NCBI GenBank assembly: GCA_029776225.1
Contig: JAKOTR010000035.1
Location: 124,001-188,000 of the forward strand
DNA: 64,000 nt
Direction: 5' to 3'
Source of the DNA: Acidobacteriota bacterium
GTDB taxonomy: Bacteria; Acidobacteriota; Terriglobia; Bryobacterales; Bryobacteraceae
Part shown: positions 31,500-40,721 of the stretch, piece by piece
Layout of the letters: the number at the start of each line of letters is the position of its first letter
How positions within the stretch are numbered: the first letter of the stretch is position 1
Program-made: the position numbers and the translations under genes
Notes under the pieces: model-generated
Databases searched by the model: none
Told to the model about the DNA's origin: nothing
What the model saw: the letters and a program-made list of their open reading frames with translations, nothing else

Positions 31500-33644
31500 A
31501 TGGCAATCCGCCGCTATCTTCTTTTGGGCGTACTCCAAGGGGCCTTTGCCTGGTCGGCTTACTCCATCGGCGAATTCGTGGTTTCGTCCGTGTTCGGATT
31601 GGCGCGGCCATACGCGGAGCTGACGCCGTGGCACTGGCAGCTCACCAGCCTGTTGATCGCCGGATATCTCTTGGCCGGCCTGCTTGCCGGGGCGCTCGCC
31701 GGCCTCATTCTTTACCTGCTCACGAGCGCCGTCTCCTGGGTCGAGAACACCGACACGGCTTCGGTTCTCGAAGCCGGTGGGACGCTGACGCTCGTCGCGG
31801 CTTTCGGCGCCAATCTGCTTGCGCACTCTTCAGGCGATATCGGACGAGTGCCGCTGTTGGGTCTGAGCGTGATCTTTTGCCTGCTGCTGGTAGCGGCCAT
31901 CCGCTCGGAAAAAGTATCCGAGCGCCTCGGCCTGCTCACGAATCCCTGGATCGTCGCGATTGTGCTGTTGGGTACGGGGCAGATATTCGGACTGCTCAAG
32001 CTGAGAGAGGACGGCAGCCCGGCGGGCGGCAAGGCCATGGTGTTCGCGGCCGGACTCGCCGTAGTGCTGTTAGCCATCGTCGTTGCGTCTGTGTTTGCCG
32101 GCAGGCGGCTGCGCGCCCGTTTCGCCCGGCGGCCGGCAGGAAAGTTTGCGCCGGCGGGCGCAGCGCTCGCCCTCGCCTGCGGGTTGCTGGCGGTGAGTGC
32201 CTGGCTGGGCTGGCCGCGAATTTCCTCGGCCGAAGCACAGGCGGCCGCCGTTCAGAGCTCCTCTCAACCCAACGTGGTCATCATGGTGATGGACACGGTC
32301 CGCGCAGACCACCTCTCGCTTCACGGATACTCGCGGCGGACCACTCCCAACCTGGAGGCGCTCGCGCGCGACTCGGTGGTCTACAAAAATGCCATCGCGC
32401 CTTCGGACATGACGCTGAGCAGCCACGGCTCGCTGTTCACCGGCTTGTATGCGGGCTGGCACGGCGCGCATTGCTCGCCTCCCGAGGCCAGTTACGGCCG
32501 CCCGCTCAGTCCCAATGTGACCACCCTGGCGGGAATACTCGCCGCCAACGGCTACTCGACAACCGGCGTTTCCGCGAACGTGTATCTGAGAGAGAATTTC
32601 GGACTGCAGCGAGGTTTTCAGCGGTTCCGCATTCCCAGGCCCGTGCCGGTCCTCAGCCCGGAAAGTTGGTATCTGCTCCGCAGGGGCATGCGGAGGACGC
32701 TGACTCACTTCGTCGACACCGCCCAGTTTGACCGCCTGTTCGCCCGCGCCGAGGATGTGAATCAATCGGCATTCGAGTTGATGAACGGGCAGGTGCTCGC
32801 CCGCGGCCCGTTTTTTCTTTTCCTGAATTACATGGACGCGCACTTCCCTTACGTTCCGCCGGCGCCTTTCGATACGCGTTTCCCCGGCAAGATCCGCAGC
32901 CTGACCCAGGATGAACTCACCGAAGTTCAGGAAGCGGTGGTCAGCGGCCATCCCATGTCCGCCGAAGAGCATGCCCACTTCATCTCGCAGTACGACGGCG
33001 GCATCGCTTACGTGGACGCACACATCGGGCAGGTGATCCAATGGCTGAAGCGGCGCGGAGTCTACAACAACACGATGATCGTCGTCGTTTCCGACCACGG
33101 CGAGCAGTTCGGGGAAAAAAACCTGGTCCTGCACGGAAACTCGATTTACCAGGCGCTGCTCCATGTCCCGATGGTCATCAAGTTTCCCGGAAACAAGCGC
33201 ACCGGCGTTGTTGACGAGCCGGTCAGCCTTATCGATGTCGCGCCCACGATTCTGTCGGCTCTCGAACTCCCCGTCCCGGAAAACATGCAGGGGATCGATC
33301 TGCTGACTTCGGACCCGGCAAACCGCAAGCAACTCTTCAGCGAGTCGTTCCCGTGTCCCGCCTTGCACCGTTCGGATTGCCCGCAGGAAGGCTGCCGGGC
33401 GCAAGCGGTATTCTCCTGGCCGCTCAAGTACGCCAGTTCTTCGAGTGGCCGCCGCGAACTGTTCGATCTGGCCAAAGACTCGCGCGAGGACCACAACATT
33501 CTCGGCAAGGAACCCCAAGTAGCCAAGGAACTTAGCCTAGAACTCTCCCGCTGGCTGAAGACCGTTCCGGTCAAGGCCGGCCAGCAATCCGGCATCGAAG
33601 CGGAGACGCTCCAGCAACTCAAGTCCCTGGGCTACGTGCAGTAA
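31500..33644 (+). CDS. membrane-anchored sulfatase-family enzyme (Thr in place of formylglycine Cys)
   Basis: 714 residues. The first ~240 contain about six membrane helices (LTSLLIAGYLLAGLLAGAL, IVAIVLLGTGQIFGLL, VFAAGLAVVLLAIVVASVF). The rest is a sulfatase fold: IMVMDTVRADHLSLHGY (Asp265, Asp270), SDMTLSSHGSLFTG where Thr305 stands at the formylglycine position, VVVSDHGEQFGE and a C-terminal LQQLKSLGYVQ. The layout (multi-span anchor plus extracellular domain, Thr nucleophile) is that of LtaS/EptA-like phospho-transferases, although overall sequence is of the sulfatase type. It faces away from the cysC operon across 187 bases. Confidence 0.82.
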   Translation: MAIRRYLLLGVLQGAFAWSAYSIGEFVVSSVFGLARPYAELTPWHWQLTSLLIAGYLLAGLLAGALAGLILYLLTSAVSWVENTDTASVLEAGGTLTLVAAFGANLLAHSSGDIGRVPLLGLSVIFCLLLVAAIRSEKVSERLGLLTNPWIVAIVLLGTGQIFGLLKLREDGSPAGGKAMVFAAGLAVVLLAIVVASVFAGRRLRARFARRPAGKFAPAGAALALACGLLAVSAWLGWPRISSAEAQAAAVQSSSQPNVVIMVMDTVRADHLSLHGYSRRTTPNLEALARDSVVYKNAIAPSDMTLSSHGSLFTGLYAGWHGAHCSPPEASYGRPLSPNVTTLAGILAANGYSTTGVSANVYLRENFGLQRGFQRFRIPRPVPVLSPESWYLLRRGMRRTLTHFVDTAQFDRLFARAEDVNQSAFELMNGQVLARGPFFLFLNYMDAHFPYVPPAPFDTRFPGKIRSLTQDELTEVQEAVVSGHPMSAEEHAHFISQYDGGIAYVDAHIGQVIQWLKRRGVYNNTMIVVVSDHGEQFGEKNLVLHGNSIYQALLHVPMVIKFPGNKRTGVVDEPVSLIDVAPTILSALELPVPENMQGIDLLTSDPANRKQLFSESFPCPALHRSDCPQEGCRAQAVFSWPLKYASSSSGRRELFDLAKDSREDHNILGKEPQVAKELSLELSRWLKTVPVKAGQQSGIEAETLQQLKSLGYVQ

Positions 33645-33659
33645 GGGCCCGTCCGACTC

Positions 33660-33668
33660 TGGTATACT
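33660..33668 (+). promoter_or_regulatory. extended -10 promoter of the his operon
   Basis: TGGTATACT is an extended -10 box (TG-n-TATACT). A start about seven bases downstream would fall at 33675-33676, one or two bases before the leader-peptide ATG at 33677, so the leader would be translated from a leaderless or nearly leaderless transcript. No good -35 is visible. Confidence 0.5.
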
Positions 33669-33676
33669 GACTCTTC

Positions 33677-33745
33677 ATGCAAGTCTGCGCCGTCGCACTG
33701 CATCATCACCATCACCATTCGAAGCCACACAGGGCGGCGGGCTGA
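33677..33745 (+). CDS. hisL: his operon leader peptide with six consecutive His codons
   Basis: A 22-codon frame reads MQVCAVALHHHHHHSKPHRA followed by AG and TGA at 33743-33745. Codons 9-14 (33701-33718) are all His, with a seventh His at codon 18. It lies directly before hisI and is followed by complementary segments ending in a Rho-independent terminator, the classic arrangement of a translation-coupled attenuator. Slow translation of the His codons signals low charged tRNA-His. The run of His codons is not a cloning tag: it has its own promoter-like element and matching downstream hairpins. No Shine-Dalgarno sequence precedes the ATG. Confidence 0.85.
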   Translation: MQVCAVALHHHHHHSKPHRAAG

Positions 33746-33790
33746 CTTCTCGCAATTTTTCAGAACAAAAATTGAAAAGGCGCCCGCCGC
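33734..33790 (+). promoter_or_regulatory. his attenuator: antiterminator pairing
   Basis: GCGGCGGGC at 33734-33742, inside the last leader codons, is perfectly complementary to GCCCGCCGC at 33782-33790, the upstream arm of the terminator. A ribosome stalled on the His codons (33701-33718) leaves 33734-33742 free to pair and prevents the terminator. A ribosome that reaches the stop at 33743 covers it. Between the two arms is a hairpin, CAATTTTT (33753-33760) with AAAAATTG (33767-33774). Confidence 0.75.
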
Positions 33791-33810
33791 TGAAATAGGC
33801 GGGCTTTTTT
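33782..33810 (+). terminator. his attenuator terminator
   Basis: GCCCGCC (33782-33788) pairs with GGCGGGC (33798-33804) around a nine-base loop and is followed by TTTTTT (33805-33810). It is a Rho-independent terminator placed 16 bases before the hisI start, so it decides whether the whole his operon is transcribed. Confidence 0.85.
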
Positions 33811-33825
33811 GTTGGGGTTGGATCA

Positions 33826-34206
33826 ATGGAACTGGATTTCACCAAACTGGAGGGGTTGCTGCCGGCGGTGATTCAAGACCATGCCACCGGCAGGGTGCTC
33901 ATGGTCGGCTTTATGAACGAAGAGGCGTTCCGCAAGACGGTCGAAACCGGCTACGCGACGTTCTACAGCCGGTCGCGGAAGAAACTCTGGCTGAAGGGCG
34001 AAAGTTCCGGACACCGCCTGGTTGTTAAAGAGATCTCCACGGATTGCGACCAGGATGCCTTGCTCATCCGCGTCGAGGCCCTCGGACCGGGCGTGTGCCA
34101 CAACGGCTATCAGAGCTGCTTTTATCGGCGGCTTGAGAACGGGCAGTGGGTGGAATCGGAAAACCGCACGTACGACCCCAACGCCGTCTACGGGAGCAAA
34201 GCATGA
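33826..34206 (+). CDS. hisI: phosphoribosyl-AMP cyclohydrolase
   Basis: 126 residues, the stand-alone HisI form without a HisE domain. It opens the purine ring of PR-AMP in step 3 of histidine synthesis. Signatures: [11 protein letters not shown], the Zn/Mg-binding Asp and Cys in [15 protein letters not shown] and [13 protein letters not shown], and [16 protein letters not shown]. First gene after the attenuator. No hisE (step 2 pyrophosphohydrolase) is present in this operon. Confidence 0.95.
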
Positions 34207-35072
34207 AACTCAAACTGGGTATTCCGAAAGGCAGCCTGGAAAACGCCACCATCGACCTTTTTCGCCGCGCCGGCTTCCGCATCACCACCAGCAGCCGCTC
34301 GTATTTCCCCGACATCGACGACCCGGAGATCGAGTGCATGCTCATCCGTGCGCAGGAAATGGCCCGCTATGTCGAAGACGGCGTGCTGGACGCCGGACTG
34401 ACCGGGCGCGACTGGGTCGAGGAATGCGAAGCCACAGTCGTGACCGTCGCCGATCTCATCTACGCCAAGCAGAGTTTCGGCAAGGTACGCTGGGTGCTCG
34501 CGGTGCCGGAAGCCTCTAATTTCCAAACCGTCAAGGACCTGGAAGGAAAAGTCATCGCCACCGAGCTTGTTGGGGCGACGAAGCGCTATCTGGCCAGGCA
34601 CCAGGTGAACGCGAAGGTCGAGTTTAGCTGGGGCGCCACCGAAGTAAAACCGCCGGAGCTGGCCGACGCCATTGTCGAAGTGACCGAAACCGGCTCCTCG
34701 CTGCGAGCCAACAAGCTCCGCATCATCGACACGGTCCTCGAGTCCAATACGCAGCTCATCGCCAACGTCGACGCCTGGAAAGACGAGTGGAAGCGGCGCA
34801 AGCTCGAAGACATGCGGATGCTGCTGGAAGGCGCCATGAACGCGCTCGGAAAAGTCGGCCTGATGCTGAACGTGCACCGGGAGTGCCTCAACGCCGTTCT
34901 TGCCGTGCTGCCCGCGCTGAAGAAGCCGACCATTTCGAATCTCAGCGAGGAAGACTGGCTGGCCGTGAACACCATCATCGACGAATCCACCGTGCGCAAC
35001 ATCGTGCCGCTTCTTAAGAAGGCCGGGGCGCAGGGTATCGTCGAGTATCCCTTGAACAAGATTGTGATGTGA
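34203..35072 (+). CDS. hisG: ATP phosphoribosyltransferase, long form
   Basis: 289 residues, the homohexameric long form with a C-terminal ACT-like regulatory domain (~residues 215-289), so HisZ is not needed. It catalyses the first committed step, ATP + PRPP to PR-ATP. Motifs: [43 protein letters not shown], the PRPP loop region [21 protein letters not shown]. The ATG at 34203 overlaps the hisI stop by four bases. Histidine feedback inhibition through the ACT-like domain is expected from the family. Confidence 0.95.
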
Positions 35073-35075
35073 AAC

Positions 35076-36320
35076 ATGATCCGAATCATTGAGTCGAAGA
35101 ACGCAGGGCGGCTGTTGCGGCGCCGCGCCGCGCAGTTGGCCCGGGCCGAGGAGACGGTGCGGCCGATCCTCGAGGACGTCCGCAAGCGTGGCGACCGCGC
35201 GGTCCTTGAGTACGCCCGCCATTTCGACGGGCTCGACCGGCCCTCGGTGCGCGTGCCGGCCAGCGAACTGAAGTCGGCGGCGGACCGCCTCTCTCCCGAT
35301 CTGCGCCGCGCGATTCAAACCGCGGCGAAGAACATTCGCGCTTACGCGAAAACGCAACTGCCCAAGGAGCGGATGTCCTCGCTGGCGCCGGGTCTCTGCC
35401 TGGGAAGCATCGTGCGCCCGCTCGACGCCGTCGCGGCTTACATTCCTTCGGGCCGCTATCCCCTGCCATCGACGCTCATGATGACCGCGATTCCCGCGCA
35501 GGTGGCGGGCGTGCCGCGAGTTTGCGCCGCCACGCCGCGGCCGGTCGCGGCGGTCTACGGCGCCGCCTCCCTCCTCGGTGTAACCGACGTCTTTCAAATG
35601 GGGGGCGCGCACGCCATCGCCGCTTTCGCATTCGGCACTCGCACGGTTCCCCGCGTGGACCGCATCGTCGGGCCCGGCAACATCTACGTCGCCGCAGCGA
35701 AGAAGCTGCTGGCGGGCGAGGTGGGCATCGACTTCATCGCCGGCCCCACCGAAATCCTCATCATCGCCGAGGACGGCCGGCCGGAGGTGCTCGCTGCCGA
35801 CATGCTGGCCCAGGCGGAGCACGATGTCGACGCTTCCGCCATCCTGCTGACCACATCGAAGACCCTGGCGAAAGCCGTGGCGGTTGAAATTGACCGCCAG
35901 CTCGCAGACCTTCCAACCGCACGCGTTGCGGCCAAGTCGATCGCGAAAAACAGCGCGATCATCATCGTCGAATCCACCGCTCAGGCCGTGGAGCTCGCCA
36001 ATCAGTTCGCGCCCGAACACCTCGTCATTCCGGATCTCTCGCTGCTTAGAGACATCCGGCACGCGGGCAGCGTGTTTGTCGGCCCGTTCAGTCCGGAAGC
36101 CGCCGGCGACTACGCCTCGGGACCGAACCACGTGCTGCCCACCAGCGGCGCGGCCCGGGTGCGCGGCGGCCTTTCCGCAGCCGACTTTGTCAAGGTGATC
36201 TCGGTGCAGCAGTTGAGCCGTCCCGCGCTCGCCAAACTTGCTCCCGCAGTCACTACGCTTGCGCGGACCGAAGGCCTGGAAGCGCACGCGCGCTCCGTGG
36301 AGGTGCGGCTTAATGCCTGA
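35076..36320 (+). CDS. hisD: histidinol dehydrogenase
   Basis: 414 residues. It oxidises histidinol to histidine with two NAD+. Conserved blocks: VAAYIPSGRYPLPSTLMM, VTDVFQMGGAHAIAA, IVGPGNIYVAAAKK, GPTEILIIAED, AQAEHDVDASAIL (Zn-binding Gln/His) and GDYASGPNHVLPTSGAAR. Three bases separate it from hisG. Its 3' end overlaps hisC by eight bases. Confidence 0.96.
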   Translation: MIRIIESKNAGRLLRRRAAQLARAEETVRPILEDVRKRGDRAVLEYARHFDGLDRPSVRVPASELKSAADRLSPDLRRAIQTAAKNIRAYAKTQLPKERMSSLAPGLCLGSIVRPLDAVAAYIPSGRYPLPSTLMMTAIPAQVAGVPRVCAATPRPVAAVYGAASLLGVTDVFQMGGAHAIAAFAFGTRTVPRVDRIVGPGNIYVAAAKKLLAGEVGIDFIAGPTEILIIAEDGRPEVLAADMLAQAEHDVDASAILLTTSKTLAKAVAVEIDRQLADLPTARVAAKSIAKNSAIIIVESTAQAVELANQFAPEHLVIPDLSLLRDIRHAGSVFVGPFSPEAAGDYASGPNHVLPTSGAARVRGGLSAADFVKVISVQQLSRPALAKLAPAVTTLARTEGLEAHARSVEVRLNA

Positions 36321-37368
36321 CGCCCCACGCCCCCGCGAAGCCGTTCTCAAAATGGCGCCGTATTCTCCGCCGACCAGCGGCCGCGCGGGCAAGCTCCGCC
36401 TGGATTTCAACGAGAACACCGTGGGCTGCTCCCCGCGCGTGTTGAGCGCCCTCCGCGATTGCCTCACGGCAGGCAGCCTTACCATCTATCCGGAATACGA
36501 AGAGGCGAAGAAGGAACTGGCCGCGTTTTTTGGCGTGTCTCCCGATGCGCTCCTGTTCACGAATGGAACCGACGAAGCGATTCAGGTGCTCGTCAACACC
36601 TACGTGGACGACGGCGACGACGTGCTGCTGCTGCGCCCCTCTTACGCCATGTACCGTTTCTATTCCGAGGTGGCCGGCGCGGCGGTTCGTGAGCTCGACT
36701 ACCGCGCCGAAGATTTGGCCTTTCCGCTGGAAGAATTGCTGGAGGCCATCCGCCCCGGCACGCGCGCCATTCTCATCGCCAATCCCAACAACCCGACCGG
36801 AAGCGGCGTTGATCTGGACGGCATCGAGCGGATTCTTAAGGCGGCCGGCGCCGCGGCCGTGCTCATCGACGAGGCCTACTTCGAATTTTGCGGCGTGACG
36901 GCGCTGCCGCTCATCGAGCGCTATCCCAACCTCTTTGTCAGCCGCACGTTTTCGAAGGTCTATGGTATGGCGGCCATGCGCATGGGCTGCCTGCTATCGC
37001 AGCCTGCGAACGTAGCTTACCTGCACAAAGCGCAGTCCCCTTACAGCGTGAACTCTCTGGCGGTGATCGCCGCGCGCGCGGCCATCCGCGACCAGGAGTA
37101 CATCCAAAACTATGTCGCCGAAGTTCACGCGGCGCGCGAGCTGCTCCGCGCCGGCCTGGACGAATTGAAGATCCCCTATTACCCGAGCCAGGGGAACTTC
37201 ATTCTGATGCGCATCGGCCCGCGCGCAATCGAGGTGCGCGACCGTCTTCGCGAGCGGGGCGTGCTGGTGCGCGACCGCAGCTACGAAGTCGAAGGCTGTG
37301 TCCGCGTGACCGTCGGAACGCGCGAGCAGGTGCGGCGCTTCCTGAGCGAACTGAGAGAGATCTGGTAA
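36313..37368 (+). CDS. hisC: histidinol-phosphate aminotransferase
   Basis: 351 residues, fold-type I PLP aminotransferase. It converts imidazole acetol phosphate to histidinol phosphate. Motifs: LDFNENTVGCSPRV, FTNGTDEAIQVL, IANPNNPTGSG, IDEAYFEF and the PLP lysine in SRTFSKVYGMAAMRMG. The start at 36313 sits within hisD and gives the family's N-terminus (LKMAPYSPPT). The stop shares its last A with the next ATG (TAATG). Confidence 0.95.
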   Translation: MPDAPRPREAVLKMAPYSPPTSGRAGKLRLDFNENTVGCSPRVLSALRDCLTAGSLTIYPEYEEAKKELAAFFGVSPDALLFTNGTDEAIQVLVNTYVDDGDDVLLLRPSYAMYRFYSEVAGAAVRELDYRAEDLAFPLEELLEAIRPGTRAILIANPNNPTGSGVDLDGIERILKAAGAAAVLIDEAYFEFCGVTALPLIERYPNLFVSRTFSKVYGMAAMRMGCLLSQPANVAYLHKAQSPYSVNSLAVIAARAAIRDQEYIQNYVAEVHAARELLRAGLDELKIPYYPSQGNFILMRIGPRAIEVRDRLRERGVLVRDRSYEVEGCVRVTVGTREQVRRFLSELREIW

Positions 37369-38042
37369 TGAGCGAACGATTCATCGTCTTCGATATGGAC
37401 GGCGTGCTGGTGGACGTTTCGGATTCCTACCGCACCACCATCATCCGTACGGTCGAGGACTTCACCGGCAAACGAATCAGCCGCGAGCTGATTCAGGAAT
37501 ACAAGAACCGGGGCGGCTGGAACGACGATTGGAAGCTGTCCCACCGCATAGTGAACGATCTCGGAGTTCAGGTGGAGTACGAGGAAGTCGTGCGCCACTT
37601 CAACAAGCTGTTCCTCGGCAATGGCGCGGACGGCCTGATCCGGCGCGAGCGCTGGATCGCGAGCCCCGGCCTTTTGGAACGCCTCAGCGAGCGATACCGG
37701 CTGGCCATCTACACCGGGCGTCGCCAGTTCGAAGTGAAGCCGACGCTGGAGCGTTTCGCCGGCACGCTGCGCTTTGACCCCATCGTCACCGCGGAGATGG
37801 TGGAGCATCTCAAGCCGGCGCCCGACGGGCTGCTCAAGATCCGCGAGATGTACCCGGGCAGCGATTTCCATTACGTCGGGGACACCATTGACGACTGCCG
37901 CTGCGCAAAGGCGGCCGGGGTTCCCTTTATCGGCATAGCCGCGCCGGACTCCTTAAGGCGCGAGGAACTTGTGTGCTTGTTCCAGGCCGAGGGCGCTGCC
38001 GCCGTTCTCGAAAGCATCAACCAGTTGGAGACCGTGCTGTGA
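37368..38042 (+). CDS. HAD-superfamily phosphatase, candidate histidinol-phosphate phosphatase
   Basis: 224 residues. HAD motif I is [11 protein letters not shown] (Asp9, Asp11), motif [11 protein letters not shown], motif III Lys in [11 protein letters not shown] and motif [18 protein letters not shown]. The his operon has a HisB with only the dehydratase domain and no HisN or PHP phosphatase. This HAD protein is overlapped by hisC on one side and hisB on the other. The missing histidinol-phosphate phosphatase step therefore fits it well. It belongs to the HAD-IA group found next to hisB in some archaea and bacteria. The function is inferred from context. Confidence 0.75.
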
Positions 38043-38626
38043 GAACCGCCTCCGTCGAGCGCAACACGAAGGAAACAAGGATCCGCGGCAAGCTGCGGAT
38101 CGAGGGCCGCGGCCGTTACCAAATCTCCACCGGAATCCGCTTCCTCGATCACATGCTCGAGCTGTTTGCCAAGCACGGCGGCTTCGACCTGGAACTCGAA
38201 GCCGCGGGCGATCTCGACGTCGATCAGCACCACACCGTCGAAGACGTCGGGATCGTGCTCGGCCAGCTCTTCTGCCGCGCGCTCGGCGACCGCCGCGGCA
38301 TCAACCGCGCCGGCTACTTTGTGATGCCGATGGACGAAACGCTGGCGGTTGCCGCCGTGGACCTTGGCGGGCGGCCGTACCTGGTCTACAAGGATCTGGT
38401 CAAGGCGCGCACGGTCGGCGACCTGCAATCCGAACTGGTTGAGGATTTTTTCCAGGGTTTCGTTGCTCACGCCGGCGCGAACCTGCACATCCGGGTGATG
38501 TACGGACGCTCCAGCCATCACCAAATTGAGGCGGTGTTCAAATGTTTTGCCCGAGCGATGAAGTTCGCCTGTTCGAAGGACAAGCGTCTCAAGGACGAGC
38601 TTCCGTCGACCAAGGGGCTGCTATGA
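38039..38626 (+). CDS. hisB: imidazoleglycerol-phosphate dehydratase
   Basis: 195 residues, dehydratase-only HisB. The Mn-binding His/Glu motifs are [41 protein letters not shown], and late [11 protein letters not shown] and [17 protein letters not shown] start at 38039 overlaps the HAD stop (GTGA) and gives the expected N-terminus ([12 protein letters not shown]). Confidence 0.95.
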
Positions 38627-38663
38627 AGGGTGCTGTTGTCCGGATTGCCTTTCCTGGAGTTCT

Positions 38664-39257
38664 ATGATCGCGATCTTCGATTACGGCGCGGGTAATCTGC
38701 GCTCGGTCGAAAACACGCTGGCCGAAATCGGCGCGCAATACACGTTGGTCCGCGATGCCGCCGGATTGAAGGAAGCCTCCAAGATCATTCTGCCCGGCGT
38801 GGGCCATTTCGGCCAGATGATGCGCGCGCTCGACCGGCTTCAGGTGCGCGGCGCGCTGCTCGATGCGATCTCCGCCGGCGTGCCGTTTCTCGGTATTTGT
38901 TTGGGCTTGCAGGCGCTGCTGGAAAGCAGCGAGGAAGCACCGGAAGTGCGCGGGCTTGGCGTGTTCTCTGGCTGCGTCAGGCGTTTCCCCCGGGATGCGC
39001 GCGTGCCGCACATGGGCTGGAACGAGCTCGAATGCTGTTCTCCCTCCCGGCTGCTCGAAGGGCTCGGGCCGGCACCGTATGTTTACTTCGCCCATAGTTA
39101 CTATGTGCCTGTAAGTCACTACACAGTGGCGAAATGTACTTACTCGGAGCCGTACACCGCGGTGCTGGAGAGCGGGAACGTCTTCGGCGTGCAATTTCAT
39201 CCCGAAAAGTCCGGACCGCTCGGGCTGCGAATCGTTAAGAACTTCGTGGAGTTATAA
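38664..39257 (+). CDS. hisH: imidazole glycerol phosphate synthase, glutaminase subunit
   Basis: 197 residues, class I glutamine amidotransferase that feeds ammonia to HisF. Catalytic Cys in [13 protein letters not shown], His/Glu in VQFHPEKSG, oxyanion region [12 protein letters not shown]. It begins [14 protein letters not shown], typical for HisH. It lies 37 bases after hisB and one base before hisF. Confidence 0.96.
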
Positions 39258-39258
39258 A

Positions 39259-40026
39259 ATGCTGGCTAAACGCATTATCCCCTGCCTGGACGTCACCGCC
39301 GGCCGCGTGGTGAAAGGCGTCAATTTCGTGAACCTGCGCGATGCGGGCGACCCCGTCGAACTGGCGGACCGCTACAATCAGCAGGGCGCCGACGAACTGG
39401 TTTTCCTGGACATCACCGCCTCGAGCGAGGAACGCGACACCATGGTCGACGTGGTGGCGCGCACCGCGCGCAAGGTCTTTATACCGCTCACCGTCGGCGG
39501 CGGCATCCGCTCGGTCGCTGACGCCCGGCGCATTCTGCTCGCGGGCGCCGACAAGGTGAGCATCAACACGGCCGCGGTGAAGCGCCCCGAACTGATCCGG
39601 GAGCTGAGCGAGGAATTCGGTTCCCAGGCCGTGGTGCTGGCCATCGACGCCCGGCGGCGCCCCTCCGGCGACGGCTGGACGGTTTACGTTCGCGGCGGCC
39701 GGGACGACACAGGCATCGATGTCATCGAGTGGGCCATGCGCGGGGAATCCCTCGGAGCCGGCGAGATCCTGCTCACCTCCATGGACACCGACGGCGTTCA
39801 GGAAGGTTTTGATTGCGAACTGACACGAGCGGTTTCCCGCGCCACTCGCGTCCCTGTGATCGCCTCCGGCGGAGCCGGCAAACCGGAGCATTTCAGCCGC
39901 GTGCTGACCGAGGGCGAAGCCGACGCCGCCCTGGCCGCCTCCATCTTCCATTACGGCACGTATACCGTCGCCGATCTCAAGGAACACCTGGCGCGCTGCG
40001 GCATTCCCGTCCGGAGGTCCTCGTGA
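39259..40026 (+). CDS. hisF: imidazole glycerol phosphate synthase, cyclase subunit
   Basis: 255 residues, (beta-alpha)8 barrel. Together with HisH it makes IGP and AICAR from PRFAR. Catalytic Asp in [18 protein letters not shown], the second in [14 protein letters not shown], with phosphate loops TVGGGIRS and [12 protein letters not shown]. It overlaps hisA by four bases. The hisF-hisA order is the reverse of the enterobacterial one. Confidence 0.96.
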
Positions 40027-40721
40027 TCATTCCTTGCATCGACTTGATGGACGGCAAGGTCGTCCAGCTCGTGCAAGGCCGCGAGAAGGCTCTCGAGGGG
40101 GGAACGCCCGAGGAGATGCTGGACCGCTTCTCCCGCTTCCGGCAGATCCAGGTGATCGATCTCGACGCGGCGCTCGGCCGGGGCTCCAATGACGGAATCG
40201 TCGAGTTCCTCGCTGAACGCGCGGTGACGCGAGTAGGCGGCGGCGTGCGCACGCCGGGGCGGGCGCGCCACCTGGCCGAACTCGGCGTGCAGAAGGTGAT
40301 CGTGGGCACCGCCGCGTTTTCCCAAACCGGTATCAACACCGAGTTTCTCGAGACGCTGTGCGAGGAGATCGGCCGCGACCGTGTCCTCGTGGCTCTGGAT
40401 TCCAAAGAGGGCCGCATCGTCATCAAGGGTTGGCGCGAAGCCACCGACTTGAGCGCTGAAGAGGTGCTCGGCCTCCTGGAGCCCTACTGCTCGGGCTTCC
40501 TGTGTACGTACGTGGACAAGGAAGGGATGCTGCAAGGGACGAACCTCGACTGGTTCCGCCGCCTGCGCGCGGCTACAAACCTGGAACTCACGGCCGCGGG
40601 CGGCATCTCTTCCTACGATGAGATTCGCGCCCTGGCGGAGCTTGGCATCCACGCCGCTCTGGGCATGGCGATCTACACCGGAAAACTGGACCTGGAAACG
40701 CTGGCGGCAATGGACGTCTAG
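40023..40721 (+). CDS. hisA: ProFAR isomerase
   Basis: 232 residues, (beta-alpha)8 barrel related to HisF. It isomerises ProFAR to PRFAR. Catalytic Asp in [18 protein letters not shown], Asp in [14 protein letters not shown], phosphate loops [11 protein letters not shown] and [16 protein letters not shown] start at 40023 overlaps the hisF stop. It is the last his gene; the next start is 96 bases away. Confidence 0.95.

Follow-up and report, generated by a model that had tools for sequence, protein, structure and literature searches.

The his operon of the window, the whole 64,000-nucleotide stretch of acidobacterial DNA that was analysed, is probably controlled by a ribosome-mediated histidine transcription attenuator whose sensor peptide would be translated from a leaderless mRNA, a reading to which a probability of about 0.87 is assigned. 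It is built on the sequence, its conservation and covariation, and the spacing of a promoter element, and would extend from these to the transcription start, the positions of the ribosome and the response to histidine. A cluster of codons for the operon's own amino acid was found in a short open reading frame, an intrinsic terminator lies between this leader and the first gene, and an antiterminator that excludes the terminator and would be exposed by a stalled ribosome was recognized at the sequence level. The original prediction, made from the DNA letters, had spoken of an apparent acidobacterium, and this holds from the nearest named hisI relatives, which belong to Bryobacterales, Bryobacteraceae, Solibacteraceae and 'Terriglobia' genomes of the phylum Acidobacteriota.

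The leader and the his operon

The elements between the upstream gene and hisI are collected in Table 1. The six tandem histidine codons were found exactly where they had been predicted, and a seventh, CAC, lies at 33728-33730. The perfect nine-base complementarity claimed for the two antiterminator arms is exact, with GCGGCGGGC at 33734-33742 being the reverse complement of GCCCGCCGC at 33782-33790, and extends to a helix of 10 bp (33733-33742 with 33782-33791), the tenth pair being G-U (33733-33791). The terminator, also predicted, is present with a stem of GCCCGCC (33782-33788) and GGCGGGC (33798-33804) followed by TTTTTT, and its fold gave z -2.6 against shuffles. The antiterminator segment folded more stably than every one of 200 shuffles (z -3.7) and is not a chance pairing in the window. 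The A+U-rich hairpin within its loop, CAATTTTT/AAAAATTG, is apparently specific to the window species and may bring segments 2 and 3 together. When the 5.2-Mb genome was searched for further stretches of five or more CAY triplets, no short leader was found, the runs being in long ORFs or other non-leader contexts.

Table 1. Positions of the features in the window and of two short ORFs in distant loci
Feature	Position	Strand	Basis and remarks
Sulfatase-like gene upstream of leader	31500-33644	same as his operon	ORF
Extended -10 promoter element TGG-TATACT	33660..33668	+	sequence; not in the original prediction
Predicted transcription start, A of leader ATG	33677 (33675-33677 possible)	+	inferred from -10 spacing
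Leader peptide ORF MQVCAVALHHHHHHSKPHRAAG*	33677..33745	+	22 codons; ATG 33677, TGA 33743-33745
Six tandem His regulatory codons CAT CAT CAC CAT CAC CAT	33701..33718	+	sequence
Candidate segment 1 (protector arm)	33681..33700	+	pairs with 33730-33748; not in the original prediction
Segment 2, antiterminator 5' arm, final leader codons	33733..33742	+	sequence, fold, covariation with segment 3
A+U-rich hairpin within antiterminator loop	33753..33774	+	fold; fits both states; not conserved in alignment
Segment 3, antiterminator 3' arm and terminator 5' arm	33782..33791	+	sequence, fold, covariation
Intrinsic terminator	33782..33810	+	fold; alignment consensus structure; present in relatives
hisI, first structural gene of operon	33826..34206	+	ORF; relatives 57-86% identical
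hisG, hisD, hisC, HAD-type phosphatase, hisB, hisH, hisF, hisA	34203..40721	+	ORFs named from their own sequences
Short ORFs before hisG in a distant family	L149:5782-5851, L152:5718-5787	along hisG	without TAnnnT spacing

The identity of hisG was confirmed by PF01634, and tblastn with the his genes of the window as queries revealed the same gene order in relatives. The hisB of the window is short, a 217-aa ORF with the dehydratase part only, and a HAD-type phosphatase gene (37365-38040) sits between hisC and hisB, which may supply the histidinol-phosphate phosphatase. A crude scan of ilvB- and leuA-type genes in the same genome found no further leaderless leaders with terminators. The trpE domain Anth_synt_I_N (PF04715) was unmatched in the 98% complete assembly of the window while 14 of 14 control genomes matched, and trpE may be divergent or missing from the assembly.

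The original prediction had proposed that upstream regions of hisI be compared among Acidobacteriota, and the comparison supports it. Within the window's family and order, the 400 nt upstream of hisI were compared for 111 relative loci; 86 distinct regions contain a His-rich leader ORF with 13-32 codons and an end 57-119 nt away from hisI, and 84 of the 86 carry a terminator, typically GCCCGCC...GGCGGGC with a U-tract, mostly 10-40 nt from hisI. Of the loci in which no leader was called, some lie on truncated contigs or are preceded by coding sequence (L016, L089), and two begin the leader with a codon other than ATG (L029, L073). At one locus (L020), about 80 nt before hisI, the promoter TGGTATACT and the terminator are kept while the leader ORF and antiterminator arm between them are missing, which looks like a natural deletion of the leader or an assembly error; if the loss is real, the his operon there would be permanently attenuated or driven from elsewhere.

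It could be argued that the hairpin is a constitutive terminator of the upstream sulfatase-like gene, which lies on the same strand and ends 137 nt from the terminator, and that the histidine codons are incidental. This is extremely improbable, as the leader and terminator stay with hisI, including where the upstream gene differs, while the sequence above the -10 box is unconserved; the terminator lies a few tens of nucleotides from hisI almost everywhere, and the antiterminator covaries, as described below.

Antiterminator and candidate protector

Pairing of segments 2 and 3 was evaluated across relatives by energy, placement and covariation. The terminator 5' arm pairs with the end of its own leader at a mean of -18.9 kcal/mol, as compared with -15.4 kcal/mol for codon-order-shuffled leaders (P 2e-13) and -17.6 kcal/mol (sd 0.24) for arms swapped among species. 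In an alignment of 35 sequences, built without structure information, 76% of the cells of the 2:3 helix are paired, compared with no more than 44.5% in slid positions, and the helix's covariation score of 0.156 exceeds both the shuffled (0.086, sd 0.011) and the slid (at most 0.097) values, with none of 500 shuffles as high. At three positions bordering the invariant CGGGC:GCCCG core, a base and its partner covary through T-A, G-C, C-G and other pair types, each at P 0.0002 (0/5000 shuffles), which is the least value obtainable from 5000 shuffles; these shuffle P values are overstated since the shared ancestry of the sequences remains in part, yet the slid controls share that ancestry and fail. 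Part of the core is invariant and gives no covariation signal, an invariance that partly reflects the terminator and the Arg/Ala codons. RNAalifold, applied to the whole leader in the 35-sequence alignment, returned mainly the terminator, with no compensatory pairs in its stem because the stem is nearly invariant; the pairs of the named structures (2:3 and 1:2) were counted in place of this output. The original prediction was to fall if relatives lacked conservation or covariation of the arms or histidine codons; the codons are kept and the antiterminator covaries beyond the shuffled and slid controls, so that it withstands this comparison.

The position of arm 2 is also conserved. It had been placed in the final leader codons, where the terminating ribosome would cover it, and in 47 of 84 relatives the distance from the CGGGC core to the stop codon is indeed exactly 12 nt. 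Arm 2 starts at a median of 15 nt past the histidine cluster. A fixed distance from the stop codon and such a median distance from the histidine codons are what the footprint of a stalled ribosome requires; against this, the arm begins only 6-8 nt after the last clustered histidine codon in 9 of the 70 relatives measured. The front edge of a ribosome lies about 12 nt beyond the first base of the A-site codon. With any of the six histidine codons in the A site, the ribosome thus reaches at most about 33729 and leaves 33733-33742 free.

Whether the ribosome masks arm 2 alone or together with a protector hairpin was evaluated from the complementarity of segments 1 and 2. The original prediction described a three-part attenuator in which the ribosome alone masks the antiterminator arm and no separate anti-antiterminator is needed, a claim that appears doubtful, since leader codons 2-8 can pair with that arm. 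In the window, 33681-33700 pairs with 33730-33748 and sequesters exactly 33734-33742, at -24.9 kcal/mol for 33677-33760. Across 84 relatives, 1:2 complementarity exceeds both codon-order (P about 1e-7) and synonymous-codon shuffles (P about 1e-5), and the CCGTCGC/GCGACGG core pairs in 85-97% of sequences at the six best columns. The three-part design gains from a 1:2 covariation in relatives that is not above shuffles and from a fold in the window of only z -1.8, and is nevertheless rather unlikely given the complementarity above; a four-segment, trp-like design is judged from the sequences to be more likely. Both can be partly true, with the ribosome masking arm 2 at the stop codon and the 1:2 hairpin keeping it masked afterwards.

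In the proposed attenuation mechanism, RNA polymerase would start at, or at most 2 nt from, the A of the leader ATG, and a ribosome would load straight onto the 5' end of the mRNA. When charged His-tRNA is ample, the ribosome would reach the stop codon at 33743 and cover approximately 33728-33758, including the arm 33733-33742, which leader codons 2-8 could hold in the 1:2 hairpin after ribosome release; with arm 2 masked, segment 3 would fold with segment 4 as the terminator, and transcription would end about 15 nt before hisI. When charged His-tRNA is scarce, the ribosome would stall on 33701-33718, covering segment 1 and leaving 33733-33742 free to capture 33782-33791, so that no terminator would form and the operon would be transcribed.

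Predicted leaderless start of the leader

The extended -10 box of the window ends 8 nt before the leader ATG, and a -35 element is not recognisable upstream of it. In a base matrix of 86 leaders, the upstream signal consists solely of TGnTATACT, then 8-9 nt, then TTC|ATG with a conserved pyrimidine at -1; positions -40 to -21 are flat and no conservation is seen in the DNA preceding the -10 box. Among the 86 relatives, 69 have an extended -10 box whose end is 8-9 nt upstream of the leader ATG, as compared with 1 of 301 other ATGs in the same regions. Shine-Dalgarno-like cores precede the leader in 2 of 86 relatives. A TA-box approximately 10-12 nt before the start codon has been taken as the mark of bacterial leaderless genes, whose predicted share of the genes in three Acidobacteria is about 13% (PMC3160421). 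The features by which leaderless genes are recognized, a -10 box some 8-10 nt ahead of the start codon and no Shine-Dalgarno site, were thus found for the his leader, and from the -10 spacing, the pyrimidine at -1 and the lack of a Shine-Dalgarno site, the leader mRNA is predicted to be leaderless across the phylum, with transcription starting at the leader AUG.

The same attenuator could instead operate on a leadered mRNA that starts upstream of 33660, with the leader translated behind a 5' UTR that is conventional or lacks a Shine-Dalgarno site. The predicted start is derived from sequence, and clear Shine-Dalgarno sites are not usual in these genomes, where hisI has an SD-like site in only 16 of 111 relatives. 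A leadered mRNA is nonetheless very unlikely in view of the fixed distance of the extended -10 box from the ATG, the flat base composition upstream of it, and the like spacing of leaders beyond the window's family, of which 31 of 35 have TAnnnT ending 8-10 nt before the start; in those leaders TTGACA at -35 is common, and an SD-like site was found in only one of the 35.

Leaderless initiation proceeds on undissociated 70S ribosomes and differs in its dependence on initiation factors. Because of this, the leaderless start may conceivably be a part of the sensor across Acidobacteriota, the his operon also reading the general initiation or stress state as a dual-input attenuator, although this extension of the leaderless attenuator is regarded as quite unlikely.

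Known attenuators and spread across Acidobacteriota

The window had no match to the Rfam His_leader family (RF00514), either at gathering score or at E values up to 10; an Rfam scan of the window found nothing at gathering score, with isrD and Thr_leader as the sub-threshold entries. The covariance model of the T-box did not match the window either, so the mark of a histidine T-box riboswitch was not found there. The element resembles hisL of Salmonella and E. coli in having a run of histidine codons in a short leader peptide, an intrinsic terminator and an alternative antiterminator before the his operon; it differs in its leaderless promoter/ATG spacing and in its probable four trp-type segments, while enteric his has an extra hairpin between the pause hairpin and the terminator (PMC1183508). 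The E. coli trp attenuator shares the 1:2, 2:3 and 3:4 logic and an arm 2 close to the leader stop codon, whereas the window has histidine codons, a predicted leaderless start, and a candidate segment 1 located at codons 2-8, ahead of the regulatory codons.

Translation-coupled his attenuation had been called best known in Proteobacteria, which is right, and His-leader attenuators have been described in Firmicutes as well: for hisS/hisZ in bacilli (PMC2965389) and for his operons of the Bacillus cereus group, Eubacteriales and Erysipelotrichales (PMC9413887). Like the window, these combine a His-codon leader with a terminator and antiterminator outside Proteobacteria; they belong to another phylum, and leaderless spacing is not reported for them in the available parts of those papers. 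Leaderless leader peptides have been reported for trpL, leuL and ilvL of Streptomyces lividans, by RNA-seq (PMC8079986), and for polycysteine leaderless ORFs of mycobacteria (Canestrari 2020, cited in PMC13236596). Such actinobacterial leaders resemble the present one in ribosome-mediated control and in an ORF that begins at the transcription start, both predicted here; they differ in amino acid and phylum, and several are without a clear intrinsic terminator while that of the window is strong. The literature searched, which is not the whole literature, described neither a histidine attenuator in Acidobacteriota nor a leaderless his leader.

The phylum was surveyed through HisG-bearing genomes drawn phylum-wide, many of them draft or metagenome assemblies, and 100 his-gene loci were obtained from that draw plus the hisI relatives. 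Many families generally have a His-rich leader in front of hisI-headed operons, as in 11 of 11 cases in family f8 and also in f20, f29, f38, f49, f51, f63, f67, f80, f4 and f7; the element is mostly absent from lineages with other his gene order or a short HisG. For 14 of the 35 leaders of other families, notably in f8, no terminator was returned by a simple scan, and the switch may differ there in its downstream half. Within the window's order, a large genus that has hisI-hisD shows no recognisable His leader ahead of hisI (L186-L188, L194, L206, L207), while other genera of its family keep it (L189, L191, L192, L208); this is taken from the sequences as a lineage-specific loss. In a distant family with hisG first, this gene is preceded at 76-84 nt by the short ORFs MLKASLHIHLCHHHVHTIRRVG and MLNLQISRFHAHFHHHALVKGA, possibly independent His leaders.

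In conclusion, many acidobacterial families have conserved the putative histidine switch, and a probable, widely conserved histidine attenuator can thereby be assigned to Acidobacteriota. Histidine leader peptides and leaderless leader peptides, so far apart in the literature searched, would be joined in this element, which offers a testable case of attenuation with the ribosome loading directly at the 5' end of the nascent RNA. Annotation based on Shine-Dalgarno sites will overlook such leaders.
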